From NCBI RefSeq assembly GCF_030020805.1, contig NZ_CP125098.1:1902001-1966000 (forward strand): a stretch of 64,000 nucleotides of DNA, given 5' to 3'. The stretch comes from Paenibacillus sp. RC67. GTDB taxonomy: Bacteria; Bacillota; Bacilli; Paenibacillales; NBRC-103111. The notes under the pieces were generated by a model, which was not told the origin of the DNA, searched no databases, and saw nothing but the letters and a program-made list of their open reading frames with translations. This document shows, piece after piece, positions 10,058 through 52,423 of the stretch. The stretch's first letter is position 1, and each line of letters starts with the position of its first letter. The position numbers and the translations under genes are program-made.

Positions 10058-10305
10058 TCAAATCCGAATTTCAATGATCGGGACAGTAGTTAATTGATTT
10101 CAGTCGCAGCGAGCCGGGAGGGTGAAAGCCGGTACGAAGTCATTAGTGAAGCGGACCCGCGAGATGGCCTTTTGAACCAAAGTAGGAAGGCCCGGCTGAA
10201 GACCGTTATCTTATAAGGTGGTTAAACCTGTGGTTTAACAACAAGAGTGGTACCGCGAGCACAAAGTCCTCGTCTCTTAACAGAGATGTGGACTTTTTTT
10301 GTTGT
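10058..10305 (+). promoter_or_regulatory. T-box leader of argS, specifier CGG (Arg)
   Basis: T-box core TGGTACCGCG lies at 10248-10257, then a terminator stem (AAAGTCC with GGACTTTTTTT). In Stem I the loop-E strand AGTA is at 10085-10088 and the opposing GAA at 10148-10150. The upper helix TTAAT/ATTAG and the lower GGG/CCC pair enclose a loop whose bases after GAA-G are CGG (10152-10154) followed by A. CGG is an arginine codon and matches the downstream gene. The specifier is my inference from manual folding; the T-box itself is clear. Confidence 0.85.
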
Positions 10306-10350: not shown

Positions 10351-12210
10351 ATGCTAAGTCAATTTATGATAGGTAATCTGGAAAGATCGTTAAAAGGGCT
10401 GTTGGAGGAGCTGGGAGCAGCTTGGAACGAAGGAATTAAAATTACGCTGGAACAGCCTGCCCAATTGGAGCATGGCGATTATTCGACTAACATCGCGATG
10501 CAGCTGGCTAAGGTGCTGCGTAAACCGCCGATGCAAATCGCAGATTTGTTGATCAAGAGGCTGGAGCAGGACGGCTCTATGGAGCGTCTAGTTTATAAAA
10601 TAGAAGCTGCCTCGCCCGGGTTCATCAATCTGTTTTTGGATTGGAAGCAGTGGGCTGTTAAGTCATTTGCAATGCCGGCGTTAAAAGGGGAAAAGGTTGT
10701 TATCGAGCATACCTCGATTAATCCTAACAAATCCGCCCATATCGGGCATTTAAGAAATTCTTGTATCGGCGATGCACTGGTAAAGCTGCTTAGGAGAGTG
10801 GGATATGAGGTAGAGGTTCATAATTATATTGACGATCTCGGCAATCAGTTGGCAGATACCGTCGTCGGACTTCAGCATACGCAGCTGCACAAAAGTCATG
10901 CCCGGTTCGGTGATTTTTGCTGGGATGTTTATTCTCAAATCAATAAGGAATATGCGAAAAATCCTCAACTGCTCGAGCAGCGTACTCATGTGCTGCATGC
11001 TTTGGAGGAAGGGGACTCGAATATTGCCTGGATAGGACTCTTGGTCGCGGAGCGAATAGCACGCGAGCATGTAGAAGAAATGAAACAGTTCGGCATCGAA
11101 TACGACCTGCTCGTTTGGGAAAGCAGTATCGTCAGGGAAGGCTTCTGGGCTTCCGCTTTTGAGCTGTTGAAGCAAACACCGCTTTTCTACAAGGAAACGG
11201 AAGGGAAGCTGGCAGGATGTTGGGTATTGAAACAGCCTATGGGTACAGAGGATCAGGAGTCAGAGCATCAGATCGATAAAGTGTTGGTTCGCTCTAACGG
11301 CATCTTAACTTATACCGCTAAGGATATTGCATATCACCTTTGGAAATTTGGACTGCTCGACAAAAGCTTCCTATACAAGCCGTTCGGAGATAAGTTGTGG
11401 ACGACCCATACTACCGGAAAGGTAGAGCCGTTCGGCCAGGCGGGGATGGTGATCAATGTCATCGACCATAGGCAGCAGTACCCACAAGCGATGGTAAAGC
11501 AGGCGCTGGAGGCCTTGGGATTCAACGAGCAGGCCGATAAGCTGCGGCATGTAAGTTATGGTGTCGTATCGCTTAGTCCGAATGCTGCAGCGGAGCTGCA
11601 AATCGATACATCGGACGGAAAAGCATCTTATGCTATGTCAGGACGTCAGGGCATAGGGATTAAAATAAGCGATCTGCTGAGTCTAATGGAGGAAGTGATC
11701 GATAACAAAAGATCCGATAAAGAGGGGCTGTCCAGTAAAGATATAGCAGCGGCTGCCATCAGGTATTATTTGCTCCGTTTCAACCTTCAGACGGAAGTGG
11801 TGTTCGATTTGCAGCAGGCCACCGAAATATCTGGAAATACGGGTGTGTATTTATTGTATTCCTACGCTCGTGCTGTCCGCGTGTTGGATAAAGCCGTACA
11901 GGAATTGGGTATAGCTCCGACCATACCTGAACAATTTCCTGCTATGGAAAATCAAGAGTACGCTTTGATAAGACATCTGTCGCATTGGGAAGAAACCTTG
12001 TACACGGCAAGCAAAGAGCTGACTCCGAATATCATTTGTAATTATGCGCATGAAATGGCTACGTTGTTCAATCATTTCTATGCGGTGTGCGCCATTCTGA
12101 AGTCGGGAGAGGAGAGTAGACAATTCCGAATTTGGCTTGTATCCCGTTATAAAGAGGTGCTCGGCGATGCGCTGAGGGTGCTGGGATTGCCGACTCCGAG
12201 CCGAATGTAA
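10351..12210 (+). CDS. argS: Arginyl-tRNA synthetase (long, T-box controlled form)
   Basis: Class I synthetase charging tRNA-Arg. At 619 aa it is longer than the usual Bacillus ArgRS of about 556. The N-terminal Add-1-like domain includes LEHGDYSTNIAMQLAK. The HIGH-type motif NPNKSAHIGHLRNSCIGD lies near residue 130. The catalytic core has YTAKDIAYHLWKFG, and MSGRQGIGIK near residue 430 stands at the KMSKS-equivalent site. The C-terminal DALR anticodon domain has VYLLYSYARAVRVLDKA. GGAGGG precedes ATG 10351. Control by a T-box and the divergent length suggest an inducible second copy or an acquired version; whether another argS exists cannot be seen here. It is followed by the 12234-12446 repeat element. 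Confidence 0.92.
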   Translation: MLSQFMIGNLERSLKGLLEELGAAWNEGIKITLEQPAQLEHGDYSTNIAMQLAKVLRKPPMQIADLLIKRLEQDGSMERLVYKIEAASPGFINLFLDWKQWAVKSFAMPALKGEKVVIEHTSINPNKSAHIGHLRNSCIGDALVKLLRRVGYEVEVHNYIDDLGNQLADTVVGLQHTQLHKSHARFGDFCWDVYSQINKEYAKNPQLLEQRTHVLHALEEGDSNIAWIGLLVAERIAREHVEEMKQFGIEYDLLVWESSIVREGFWASAFELLKQTPLFYKETEGKLAGCWVLKQPMGTEDQESEHQIDKVLVRSNGILTYTAKDIAYHLWKFGLLDKSFLYKPFGDKLWTTHTTGKVEPFGQAGMVINVIDHRQQYPQAMVKQALEALGFNEQADKLRHVSYGVVSLSPNAAAELQIDTSDGKASYAMSGRQGIGIKISDLLSLMEEVIDNKRSDKEGLSSKDIAAAAIRYYLLRFNLQTEVVFDLQQATEISGNTGVYLLYSYARAVRVLDKAVQELGIAPTIPEQFPAMENQEYALIRHLSHWEETLYTASKELTPNIICNYAHEMATLFNHFYAVCAILKSGEESRQFRIWLVSRYKEVLGDALRVLGLPTPSRM

Positions 12211-12213
12211 GGA

Positions 12214-12231
12214 GGAGCCCTTGAGGGCTCC
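12214..12231 (+). terminator. Hairpin directly after argS (first copy of a duplicated terminator stem)
   Basis: GGAGCCC-TTGA-GGGCTCC starts 3 nt after the argS stop and lacks a T-run. A near-copy of the hairpin (12451-12468), with a T-rich tail, lies on the other side of the repeat element. Confidence 0.6.
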
Positions 12232-12233
12232 TT

Positions 12234-12446
12234 AGATTGTCGAGAAACCTGTAAAACTTGAAATATTGCTAGTATGCTCCGGTGGGGTATGCCTCTCCGG
12301 CCGCTTGTTGTTCTTGGGAAATTTTCAATTTTATTCGCTTTACAGCGGGGATTTCCCAAGAACAAAGGCGGACGCTTTCGCTCCTCCGAGGCATACCCCA
12401 CCTACCCATATAGCAAATTTCTCGAAGAAACAGGTTTAACGACAGA
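12234..12446. repeat. Structured dispersed repeat, copy 1
   Basis: A 213 bp imperfect inverted repeat after argS. Outer arms pair in order: AACCTG/CAGGTT, TTGAAATATTGCTAG with ATAGCAAATTT, and GTGGGGTATGCCTC/GAGGCATACCCCAC. The inner arm TTGTTCTTGGGAAAT (12308-12322) pairs perfectly with 12351-12365. The outer parts are nearly identical to 50695-50897, while the inner arm and loop are unrelated to that copy. No plausible protein is encoded. It could be a MITE-like mobile element or a structured RNA; no mobilising enzyme is in the window. Confidence 0.8.
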
Positions 12447-12450
12447 CTCA

Positions 12451-12485
12451 GGAGCCCAAGAAGGCTCCCATTACATTTTTTATAT
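12451..12485 (+). terminator. Terminator after repeat copy 1
   Basis: GGAGCC-CAAGAA-GGCTCC (12451-12468) followed by CATTACATTTTTT. It is nearly the same stem as the hairpin at 12214-12231. From here to 12608 I see nothing else. Confidence 0.65.
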
Positions 12486-13916: not shown

Positions 13917-13944
13917 GATAATTATTTTCTGAATATTGTAATAA

Positions 13945-14195
13945 CGATGAAGAGGAACAGTAGCTGATAACTTGAATGTCAGAGAGCCCATGACGGTGGA
14001 AATTGGGTATTCGAGCCTAGCGAAAGAAGCCTTGGAGTATCGGACCGAAAAGTAGGAGTAAGTCCGGCGGGTCTTCCCGTTATAGGAGAGGCGCTTAATC
14101 TAAGCGCTGTGAGAGGGTTGCAATCAACCAATGCAGGTGGTACCGCGGAAGCTCTAGCCTTTCGTCCTTAGAGGATGAGGGGCTTTTTGTCATAT
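13945..14195 (+). promoter_or_regulatory. T-box leader of gltX, specifier GAA (Glu)
   Basis: T-box core TGGTACCGCGG lies at 14138-14148, then a hairpin ending GGGGCTTTTTG. In Stem I the loop-E strand AGTA (13959-13962) faces GAA (14022-14024). The helix CTTGAAT/ATTCGAG and the GCT/AGC pairs lie above, AGG/CCT below. The bases after GAA-A are GAA (14026-14028) then G, a glutamate codon that matches the gene. Specifier assigned by manual folding. Confidence 0.85.
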
Positions 14196-49549: not shown

Positions 49550-49646
49550 TCGGTGAGGCTGCTGAGCGGCAAAGAGCCGATCGATCACGTCTGGCATGTT
49601 TCGCAAGACTTCAAAAAATCATTTAGCGAAAAGAGGCGTATCCCCT

Positions 49647-50660
49647 ATGAAAGCTATTGTTTGCGAAGAACCGAATCGTTTTGAAATGAAGGAGTTCGAT
49701 ATTCCAGCAGCAGGTGAGGGAGAAGCATTGCTTCGTATTCGCCGGGTTGGTATATGCGGAACAGATTTGCACGCGTACAGAGGGAATCAGCCGTATTTCG
49801 TGTACCCTCGTATTCTAGGTCATGAACTGGCAGCAGAAATTATGGATATCGGTGAAAATAGCCAAGGGTTGAAAACAGGAGATCGTGTTACGATCATTCC
49901 TTACATGGAGTGCGGTGCATGTATTGCCTGCCGCAGCGGCAAAACGAACTGCTGTACGAAAATGAGTGTGCTGGGCGTTCATGAGGATGGTGGAATGCGG
50001 GAATATATGACGGTCCCCGTCGATCATTTACTTAACACCGATGGATTGAGCTTCGATCAAACGGCAATCGTGGAATGCTTCAGCATTGGTGCTCATGCCG
50101 TGCGAAGAGCAGCTATTACGCCTGGAGAGTTTGCACTTGTCATCGGAGCGGGCCCGATTGGTCTTGGTGTCATGAAATTTGCCAAGCTGGCGGGGGCTAA
50201 GGTTATCGCTCTGGATATTAACGAGGAGCGCTTAACCTACTGCAAGGAGTGGGCGCCGGCTGATTACATTGTGAACGCTAAGAATGACCCTGTAAAAGAG
50301 ATCGAAGCCATAACCGGAGGCGATTTTCCGACGGTTGTCCTTGATGCAACGGGCAATGCCAAATCGATGGAGGGGGCGCTGCAGTATGTATCTCACGGTG
50401 GCAGGCTGATCTATGTCGGCTTGGTCAAAAGCGATATTGCATTCAGCGATCCTGAGTTTCATAAACGGGAAATGTCCATTATTAGCAGCCGCAATGCCAA
50501 CCGAGTTGATTTCGAGCATGTCATTGAGAGCATTCGCAGCGGTCAGATCGATACGGATTCATTCATTACGCATCGTGCCTCCTTTGATGAGATGATCGGT
50601 GCCTATGAGGCATGGCTGAAGCCTGAGACGGGTGTCATTAAGGCGGTAGTCGAGCTGTAG
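49647..50660 (+). CDS. Zinc-dependent alcohol/polyol dehydrogenase (MDR family)
   Basis: NAD(P)-dependent dehydrogenase, 337 aa. The catalytic zinc site is GICGTDLHAY (Cys near 38) and GHELAAEI (His near 60). The structural zinc site is the cysteine cluster CGACIACRSGKTNCC near 92-106. The Rossmann motif GAGPIGLGVMKFAK lies near 168. It resembles sugar-acid or polyol dehydrogenases (galactitol-1-phosphate or L-gulonate type). ATG 49647 follows GAGGCG; the ORF upstream to 49596 lies before that site. It is followed by repeat copy 2. Confidence 0.87.
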   Translation: MKAIVCEEPNRFEMKEFDIPAAGEGEALLRIRRVGICGTDLHAYRGNQPYFVYPRILGHELAAEIMDIGENSQGLKTGDRVTIIPYMECGACIACRSGKTNCCTKMSVLGVHEDGGMREYMTVPVDHLLNTDGLSFDQTAIVECFSIGAHAVRRAAITPGEFALVIGAGPIGLGVMKFAKLAGAKVIALDINEERLTYCKEWAPADYIVNAKNDPVKEIEAITGGDFPTVVLDATGNAKSMEGALQYVSHGGRLIYVGLVKSDIAFSDPEFHKREMSIISSRNANRVDFEHVIESIRSGQIDTDSFITHRASFDEMIGAYEAWLKPETGVIKAVVEL

Positions 50661-50668
50661 AAGCAAAA

Positions 50669-50692
50669 GGTATCTTCTGTAATAGAGGATGC
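50669..50692 (+). terminator. Hairpin directly after the dehydrogenase gene (first copy of a duplicated terminator stem)
   Basis: GGTATCTTC and GAGGATGC pair around TGTAATA, without a T-run. The sequence is an imperfect copy of the functional terminator at 50900-50930 on the far side of the repeat. Confidence 0.55.
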
Positions 50693-50694
50693 TC

Positions 50695-50897
50695 AGATTG
50701 TGGAGGAACCTGTAAAGCTTGAAATATTGCTAGTATACTCCAGTGGGGTATGCCTCTCCAGCCGCTGTTGAAATCCATGAATCTTATTAGAATTTAGTGG
50801 TATATTCACAGATTTCAAAGGCGGACGTAAACTCCTCCGAAGCATACCCCACCTACCTATATAGCAAATTTCTCGCAAAACCAGGTTTCTCGTCAGA
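50695..50897. repeat. Structured dispersed repeat, copy 2
   Basis: A 203-bp element nearly identical in its outer arms to 12234-12446: AACCTGTAAAGCTTGAAATA, GTGGGGTATGCCTCTCCAGC, then GCATACCCCACCTACC and ATAGCAAATTTCTCG. The inner arm TTGAAATCCATGAAT (50768-50782) pairs with 50804-50818 (13 of 15 pairs) but has no sequence relation to the inner arm of copy 1. Confidence 0.8.
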
Positions 50898-50899
50898 AA

Positions 50900-50930
50900 G
50901 GCATCCTCCGTCTAAAGAGGATGCCTTTTG
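50900..50930 (+). terminator. Terminator after repeat copy 2
   Basis: GGCATCCTC and GAGGATGCC pair perfectly around CGTCTAAA, followed by TTTTG. Confidence 0.8.
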
Positions 50931-50944
50931 CTGTGAGGTGTATG

Positions 50945-52423
50945 TTATTCATTCGTTGGCTGCGAGGTATCCACGCCATAGTGTGGAGTAATCACGAATG
51001 CCTGACAGCGTCGGATTTCATTCGAATCTATAGGTCGTAGGTGCAGCACACCCTCGTGGTCGCGATTTAATGTTAGCGCAAGTCCTGTCGCACGATGCAG
51101 GATATTAAACCATCCTGCATGCTCGTCGTCCTTAACGATGTTCCAATGCTGAGTAGAGTGGTCAGCTGCCTCTTGAAGCTGAACCATAAGGTGCACACTG
51201 GCATCCGAGTCCGAGTCAGCGGTATTTGAAGATTTGGCTTCTAAGCATTTGGCTCCAATTTTATCTCTTATTCGGACATAACCGTCCTCAATTTCCTCAA
51301 TGATCCAATGCTGATCGACCGAGTCATAGGATAGCTTCTGTGCCGTGATGCATGCCGCAGGGGGTTCCTTTTTCGCTGATGCCTTCACATCAGCAGAATC
51401 TTCAGATGCAGAGAAGGCTGATGACGCCAAGTAACGGTACGACCGGTTCATTATGCGCGAGAAGCTGCTGCTTTCCTGACTAGTATGAACCGTACCTTCT
51501 TCAAGAGCAATGCTCACCTTATCGGCCCAGTTGAGCTTCATCGACTTGTCGTGGGGAAACTGGATTGGCAGGATTACATAGGAGGAACGATAGTAATCCG
51601 ATGGGTCCCAACGGTCACCGACGTACATATAGCTGGTCGTCATGCTCCCTGTAATAGGGAGGATATAGGTCGGCTGTGTATCGAACGTGGTCGGTCCGCC
51701 GAAATCGTGAAGCATCGACCAATTCCCTGTCAAGCTATCTGAATAAGCGTATTTTCCTTGATTGGGCTCCCACCCCGTGCAGCCCGAGGTGACCATAAAG
51801 TAAACGCCGTTTCGTTTCATGACCGCCGGGGCCTCACGATACTGTCCAGGCCATAATGTTCTTACATGCTCGTCGATCGACATGTAGTCTTCACTTAAAC
51901 GATAAATGTGCAAGTCCGCATTTTCTCTTGCAGCCGAAATAAAGTAACCGGTGCCGTCATCATCCACGAAGAGTGTGCAGTCCCGAGACATGAACCCTTC
52001 GGGATTGAAGCTGCCGTGATAAGTATAGTTCCCGTCAATTGTATCGCAAGTGGCGACAGCACAGCGGGCTGCTGCGTAATTGGCTCCGTTCTCCCAGTGC
52101 ATCCACATGACATATCGCTTAGTGGGCGCGTGATAGATGACCTTCGGTCTTTCAATATTGGCGCCTCGGTTCGTTTCGGTATCGGTGATAATCTCGGGAT
52201 CCGAGCGAACATCGATCGCACGAAATGGAGAATCGAGTGTCAGCACATCACCCCGAAATTCCCAGTCCATAAGATTAGAAGAGCGATAGCATGAAACGCG
52301 CTTGTGTCCTCGTCTGTTTTCGCCGAACCAATATACGTAATTTCCAGATTGAAGCAATCCGCCTCCATGGGCGTGAATCGGTTGGCCGGATGTGTCCGTC
52401 CATTGCGAGCCGTTAATTAGCAT
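50945..52423 (-). CDS. GH43-family glycosidase with C-terminal ricin-type lectin domain
   Basis: A 492-aa protein without an obvious signal peptide. The five-bladed GH43 propeller (about 1-310) shows HAHGGGLLQSGNYVYWFGEN, NIERPKVIYH, SRDCTLFVDDDGTGYFIS and GQYREAPAVMKRNGVYFMVT, which resembles the exo-beta-1,3-galactanase-like subgroup. The last 130 residues (HWIIEEIEDGYVRIRDKIGA, STQHWNIVKDD) form a beta-trefoil lectin module. GGAGGAAC lies before ATG 52423. It follows a binding-protein gene and faces pectin-degradation genes, suggesting action on arabinogalactan or rhamnogalacturonan side chains. Confidence 0.82.
   Translation of the reverse strand: MLINGSQWTDTSGQPIHAHGGGLLQSGNYVYWFGENRRGHKRVSCYRSSNLMDWEFRGDVLTLDSPFRAIDVRSDPEIITDTETNRGANIERPKVIYHAPTKRYVMWMHWENGANYAAARCAVATCDTIDGNYTYHGSFNPEGFMSRDCTLFVDDDGTGYFISAARENADLHIYRLSEDYMSIDEHVRTLWPGQYREAPAVMKRNGVYFMVTSGCTGWEPNQGKYAYSDSLTGNWSMLHDFGGPTTFDTQPTYILPITGSMTTSYMYVGDRWDPSDYYRSSYVILPIQFPHDKSMKLNWADKVSIALEEGTVHTSQESSSFSRIMNRSYRYLASSAFSASEDSADVKASAKKEPPAACITAQKLSYDSVDQHWIIEEIEDGYVRIRDKIGAKCLEAKSSNTADSDSDASVHLMVQLQEAADHSTQHWNIVKDDEHAGWFNILHRATGLALTLNRDHEGVLHLRPIDSNEIRRCQAFVITPHYGVDTSQPTNE

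Follow-up and report, generated by a model that had tools for sequence, protein, structure and literature searches.

The two repeats in our window (the whole stretch of Paenibacillus sp. RC67 DNA analysed here, 64,000 nucleotides long) each lie between two copies of the terminator stem-loop of the gene upstream, and both are copies of one dispersed inverted-repeat element of about 200 bp, a miniature inverted-repeat transposable element (MITE). We posit that this MITE is moved in trans by a transposase of one IS1182-family clade, that the target stem-loop is recognised by its fold, and that joining at the 5' feet followed by gap repair duplicates the stem-loop; we assign this reading a probability of roughly 0.87. 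Whole-stem-loop duplication is placed within a known IS family, together with a MITE family that has carried it to tens of terminators of a single genome. The parts of the two sites are as follows.

10351 to 12210, plus strand: argS (arginine--tRNA ligase), upstream of site 1, with its stop at 12210.
12213 to 12232, plus strand: left copy of the argS terminator stem-loop, AGGAGCCCTTGAGGGCTCCT, that is AGGAGCCC-TTGA-GGGCTCCT, with no T-run after it.
12233 to 12449, plus strand: MITE copy 1, an inverted-repeat element with the inner end TGTCGAGAAACC on the left and its imperfect complement on the right.
12450 to 12469, plus strand: right copy of the argS terminator stem-loop, AGGAGCCCAAGAAGGCTCCC, with a T-run a few bases downstream.
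49596 to 50660, plus strand: Zn-binding dehydrogenase (alcohol/sorbitol type), upstream of site 2, with its stop at 50660.
About 50666 to 50693, plus strand: left copy of the dehydrogenase terminator stem-loop, AAAGGTATCTTCTGTAATAGAGGATGC, which is single in the empty ortholog L167.
50694 to 50896, plus strand: MITE copy 2, of a second subfamily, about 77% identical to copy 1.
About 50897 to 50925, plus strand: right copy of the dehydrogenase terminator stem-loop, AAAGGCATCCTCCGTCTAAAGAGGATGC, followed by TTTT.

The preliminary description of this DNA had reported the hairpin copies at both sites, and the sequence confirmed both the copies and their coordinates. Beyond site 2 lies a convergent gene on the minus strand (window 50945-52423) encoding glycosyl hydrolase family 43 and ricin-type beta-trefoil lectin-like domains; since site 2 is located between convergent genes, a two-way terminator is expected there. 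The window also contains two T-box leaders, at 10065-10280 (upstream of argS) and at 13938-14172.

BLAST with either window copy located the element in at least 40 places of the RC67 genome, 40 of the 94-100 initial candidates having been scored. A profile built from 25 MITE copies, with which 64 stretches of this genome and the window were scanned, gave 68 non-overlapping matches, 57 of them near full length. For each copy, the 50 bp to the left were compared by direct match with the 55 bp to the right, and the threshold was set at the 99th percentile of mismatched left/right pairs. This mark was exceeded in 40 of the 57 near-full RC67 copies, in 43 of 61 in an enlarged set, and in 23 of 24 MITE copies of the congeners G004, G010 and G011. 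The earlier claim that the left and right hairpins match at each locus, though the loci differ from one another, is therefore borne out beyond chance. The 18 of 61 RC67 copies below the mark include several with decayed hairpins on both sides and some with none, and at some RC67 loci the hairpins on the two sides of the element differ. In G010, several copies of the element obtain similar scores with the query, and many flank repeats are letter-perfect, as with AGCACCCGCATTCGGGTGCT, which flanks locus L117 on both sides.

The MITE had no match in the plasmid collection searched. Locus L037, where the core motif occurs in opposite orientation 1.7 kb apart, was considered as an autonomous copy and rejected; it holds only partial copies and no evident transposase-like reading frame. 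Several genomes also contain another dispersed intergenic repeat, CTTGGCTTCGAAGCTGATTCAGGTACTTTGCGGGGAGCCCCG with its complement, which was seen at L011, L014, L031, L121 and L220; its hairpin ACCCCACAAAGTGGGG is the MITE target in L014 and L121. Beside the MITE copies at L035, L047, L110 and L127 there is a further group of recurring flank sequences, with motifs like AAAACTTTCTTCGTAAGC and TGCTTACGAAG.

The segment found on both sides is the terminator stem-loop of the host gene, with a stem sequence that varies between loci. In the 58 usable loci it folds at a mean of -9.7 kcal/mol, compared with -2.3 for shuffled sequences. A T-run (at least four T in the next 6 nt) follows the right copy in 36 of 58 loci and the left copy in none, while an A-run (at least four A in the preceding 6 nt) precedes the left copy in 33 of 58 and the right copy in only one. 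With the A-run kept on the left and the T-run on the right, the pattern is that of one two-way terminator (A-run, stem-loop, T-run) that was opened, its stem-loop being doubled. The preliminary description had ascribed a T-run to the right copy only; this holds broadly across loci, except that at argS the T-run of the right copy is not adjacent to the stem (CATTACATTTTTT). In 37 RC67 loci the left hairpin, without a T-run, did not differ in stability from the right one (Wilcoxon p 0.92), and the idea that it decays faster was rejected.

Orthologous sites without the element hold a single hairpin. The empty ortholog of the dehydrogenase locus (L167, G010) has one GGCATCCTCGCAGGAGGATGCC followed by TATTTTTG, without the element, and the sequence beyond resembles that of the window. 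The G004 ortholog (L166) carries an element of another subfamily, likewise between two hairpins. In the empty argS ortholog (L212, G004) a single GGGGAGCCAGCGGGCTCCCC is followed by similar bases, an assignment made by eye that lies below the threshold of the automated test. A query of 12 joined coding pieces led to 34 orthologous gene ends, 26 of them without the element. The homologous hairpin occurred once in seven of these (L216, L226, L227, L228, L234, L235 and L244) and twice in none of the 26; L227 gave an additional match, which falls in coding sequence, a match in L223 is no hairpin, and in the other element-free orthologs the terminator was not recognisable by the hairpin test. The clearest pair is the empty site L216, with AAAAAAGAGTGCTTAGCAGCACTCTTTTTTATGTG, and the filled site L002, where AGAGTGCTTAGCAGCACTCT flanks the element on both sides.

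These empty sites bear directly on the possibility that two tandem or decoy terminators existed beforehand, with the element between them, and that the likeness of the hairpins is ancestral or selected. Tandem terminators do exist in bacteria, and loci with differing hairpins on the two sides, as noted above, would suit such an origin. It is contradicted by the element-free orthologs, none of which holds the hairpin twice, by the A- and T-runs, which are split between the copies and not present at both, and by the letter-perfect repeats around recent IS copies. We regard two pre-existing terminators as ruled out by the single-hairpin empty sites, and grant this origin no more than a very slight residual chance. 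Comparison with empty orthologous sites was the check that had been proposed in advance for the idea that a whole terminator stem is duplicated at the target; it returned single hairpins at both window loci and at further loci, no empty site with two hairpins was seen, and the perfect repeats in recent copies as well as the autonomous IS copies with the same feature (see below) point the same way.

Some orthologous terminators were targeted independently. At one of them the element points one way in G004 (L242) and the other way in G000 (L241), which are different species, and argS of G010 carries a reversed element (L213), so that some terminators look like repeated targets. This supports the proposal, made from the window alone, that the element targets terminators.

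A search with NF033551, the model of an IS1182-family transposase, identified a candidate autonomous partner in congeners. At L159 (G007) an IS of about 1.55 kb, intact or nearly so, has terminal inverted repeats CAGAGTGTCGAGAAAC and CTTTCTCGACAGTCTG around a transposase gene and lies between two perfect copies of ACTTCCCTTATGTCTAAGGGAAGT, with an A-run on the left and a T-run on the right. Two contig ends of G004 (L161 and L138) hold contig-edge halves and have a common 27-bp hairpin across the IS. The halves of the transposase gene match NF033551 in L159 (3e-80 and 2e-58) and in L157 (2e-76 and 3e-62), and also match PF05598 (DUF772) and PF13751 (DDE). Because the gene is split by a frameshift, only the C-terminal half of L159 exceeds the curated cut-off alone. 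In hairpin-duplicating IS of this kind the transposase gene consists of two overlapping frames that meet at a run GGAAAAAAG (A6G; in L157 at about 1500-1525, also L259-L298). The junction looks like a programmed -1 frameshift, with the slippery run nearby in 35 of the 37 loci examined, and a Brevibacillus record has one CDS annotated across it.

The MITE end consensus TGTCGAGAAACC, a pattern matched in 30 of 85 copies on each side, agrees with the IS ends CAGGCTGTCGAGAAAG and CAGATTGTCGAGAAACC. TGTCGAGAAAC is present at both ends of the MITE and of the IS, about 12 inner bp of both ends agree between the two, and the distance from the duplication to TGTCGAG is 5 bp in both. From these matching ends we infer that this IS type mobilises the MITE in trans. 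A different transposase might move it, the likeness to IS1182-type ends being due to chance or common descent. At its right end the MITE does differ in the outermost 5 bp (GAGTC, as against CAGAT and CAGGC in the IS), and no intact IS1182 partner was found in the RC67 genome, which yielded four transposase fragments only and no match to PF05598. Nevertheless, the inner ends agree and stand equally far from the duplication, and MITE and IS have in common the unusual doubling of a whole hairpin, which makes a different transposase improbable in our judgement. With only fragments left in RC67, the IS1182-type family may be at rest in this genome.

The preliminary description had likened the element to group IIC introns, which combine a ribozyme with a retroelement and prefer terminator hairpins. 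As far as target choice goes, the likeness stands. The rest of it does not, since no intron family was detected in the window and the partner encodes an IS1182-family DDE transposase; no relation between such introns and the MITE was found. A group IIC intron or other RNA element was rejected, as no group II intron matched the window at Rfam gathering scores; an element of about 200 bp also leaves no room for a reverse transcriptase. A terminator-targeting element of the group IIC type would account for the terminator preference; given a duplicated target and a DDE-type partner, we consider its likelihood practically nil.

The same duplication was observed around autonomous IS1182-type elements in other genomes. 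G033, from the same family as the host, contains at least 15 copies of such an IS. Both ends could be recognised in 13 of them; these are 1546 bp long, and every one is flanked by a duplicated hairpin. The duplications measure 13, 16, 21, 21, 22, 23, 26, 26, 26, 26, 27, 38 and 45 bp and are perfect in 12 of 13 cases, and in each case almost the entire duplicated sequence folds into a hairpin. Among the best 80 named relatives, 45 have perfect palindromic duplications of 17-35 bp that adjoin inverted ends matching at 13 or more of 16 positions. These span four phyla and include Paenibacillus, Cohnella, Saccharibacillus, Litchfieldella, Alcanivorax, Marinobacter, Burkholderia, a Desulfuromonadales MAG and Lentisphaera. 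When a stricter end motif was required, 34 of the 80 loci showed both ends, and 19 of these have duplications of at least 13 bp, with A at the start in 16 and T at the end in 18; eight of the 15 others lie at contig edges (L272-L275, L327-L330). Eighteen loci without clear duplication were inspected individually. In L311 and L305 the hairpin duplication appears if a nested insertion or a mismatch is allowed. At L277, L283, L286 and L315 the left hairpin differs from the right one, as expected from recombination between copies. L306 is an IS copy without hairpin duplication. The main claim of the preliminary description is correct, and the phenomenon is wider than was supposed there.

Hairpin duplication extends to more distant IS1182 members. 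A closer relative on a Brevibacillus plasmid (L341) has a 17-bp duplication, and relatives of about 40% identity on a Cytobacillus firmus plasmid (L346, 35 bp) and in Streptococcus phage YS387 (L339, 24 bp) also duplicate the hairpin. Members of a second IS1182 clade, with ends GAGGCCACTGAAA and relatives, sit within the apical loops of terminator hairpins, where the loop alone is duplicated (5-10 bp), at 14 distinct sites (L136, L141, L146, L151, L365, L366, L368, L371, L374 and L383-L387; L368 and L382 are one place and were counted once). A first score for the enclosure of the loop by a stem lacked discrimination, with 3 of the 14 above the 95th percentile, probably for the reason that all terminators have A- and T-runs in common. 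In a G-C-weighted score, devised after the result of the first had been seen, stem pairing around the duplicated loop beats mismatched flanks, the total being reached in 0 of 20000 permutations. Taken singly, 9 of 14 sites lie above the 95th percentile, and L141, L374, L385 and L387 are weak. In a third set (ends GAGGGTGTCCCAAA and relatives) no duplication was found in L348-L351 and L355, and other Paenibacillaceae IS1182 clades, including the G092 copies L375-L381, showed no clear target duplication. The clades represented by L348-L351, L355 and the G092 copies may be stem-loop replacers like IS1272.

On a tree of the transposase C-termini the duplication modes cluster, with 6 changes compared with 18.6 in shuffles. 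The deep branches of this tree are long and weak, the sequences were cut at ORF ends, and L384 was left out for want of a reading frame; ISEfa7 was labelled 'other' in the mode count, and one loop-mode row (L366) stands apart. These patterns are difficult to reconcile with a second hairpin that arose only once the element was in place, through gene conversion between palindromes or template switching in the course of repair or replication, and not by the transposase. Palindromes are known to promote template switching, which is what speaks for such an origin. One transposase clade, however, regularly doubles the full stem-loop, another IS1182 clade with the same kind of target doubles the loop only, and the mode follows the transposase tree, so that we hold a post-insertion origin to be very unlikely.

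According to the transposition hypothesis preferred here, a transposase of one IS1182-family clade would move the non-autonomous MITE in trans and would recognise the intrinsic-terminator stem-loop by fold, not by sequence. The target is inferred to be a cruciform or a single-strand hairpin. The DDE transposase would then attach each 3' end of the element to one target strand, at the 5' foot of the stem-loop on that strand; this joining point is likewise inferred, and the stagger would consequently be as long as the stem-loop. Gap repair would leave one full stem-loop on each side, and one two-way terminator would become two one-way terminators, the left copy keeping the A-run and the right copy the T-run. 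The full hairpin copy left on each side suggests that the enzyme reads the folded shape of the DNA and not its letters; there is no evidence that the DNA is folded at the moment of joining.

DDE transposases normally cut their target with a fixed short stagger, and here the length of the duplication is that of whichever hairpin is present. We lean, with some reserve, towards a broader reading in which IS1182 is a structure-reading family and each clade has fixed its own joining point: at the 5' feet (13-45 bp), in the loop (5-10 bp, ends GAGGCCACTGAAA), or with loss of the stem-loop (IS1272). The fold of the DNA, and not a fixed stagger, would then set the duplication length, and through MITEs this would have reached tens of terminators of a single genome, turning two-way into one-way terminators. 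DNA folded in living cells would thereby become visible as a genome scar. The results also show a mobile element that settles harmlessly at gene ends, where a hairpin remains on either side. Which feature of the transposase selects foot, loop or replacement becomes a question that can be put to the test. Annotation based on counts of tandem terminators or of long direct repeats is affected as well.

Our literature search met no report of whole-stem-loop duplication as observed here; ISfinder and the Siguier reviews lay outside this search, and absence from print is not proven. In the accessible part of Wan 2017 (PMC5678879), attack of the 3' ends on a cruciform is described with three outcomes, in which the stem-loop is lost (3' feet), duplicated whole (5' feet) or duplicated in its loop only (loop). 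As far as that text extends, stem-loop loss was demonstrated for IS1272, the other two outcomes were drawn as possibilities, and Siguier et al. are cited for palindromic targets of some IS1182 members. Our data provide natural cases for these merely drawn pathways. On the sequence evidence available, the MITE and its IS fit the 5'-foot outcome and the sister clade fits the loop outcome; whether the target is encountered as a cruciform, a single-strand hairpin or a linear palindrome is undecided by these data.

With bacterial MITEs, as covered in the available portion of a review (PMC10969869), the element has in common that it is short, has inverted repeats and no transposase gene, and occurs in many intergenic copies; that portion names no MITE with a terminator-length, structure-defined target duplication. 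The REP-inserting IS (such as ISPsy8, ISPpu9, ISPpu10 and ISRm22; PMC1525189, partial text) resemble it in their palindromic intergenic targets. They differ in using one fixed REP sequence with a fixed cut point and 2-6-bp or no direct repeats, and not entire stem-loops of free sequence. ISEfa7 (L342, named after its plasmid record) has, in the one copy seen, a 23-bp palindromic duplication GGATTGAACATTATGTTCAATCC with an A-run on the left and a T-run on the right, and its transposase is about 40% identical to that of G033; unlike the MITE, it is an autonomous element, and it belongs to another subclade. IS1272 and TnSha1, to judge from the parts of the two papers at hand (PMC4923244, PMC5678879), likewise have an IS1182-family transposase and target hairpins, often terminators, without sequence preference, and Furi 2016 (PMC4923244) describes these insertions as accompanied by deletion and free of duplication. 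Such replacement was not met at our loci, where the stem-loop is present twice in filled sites and once in empty ones. IS1272, according to the same partial sources, removes the stem-loop and makes no target duplication, whereas here the whole stem-loop is duplicated.
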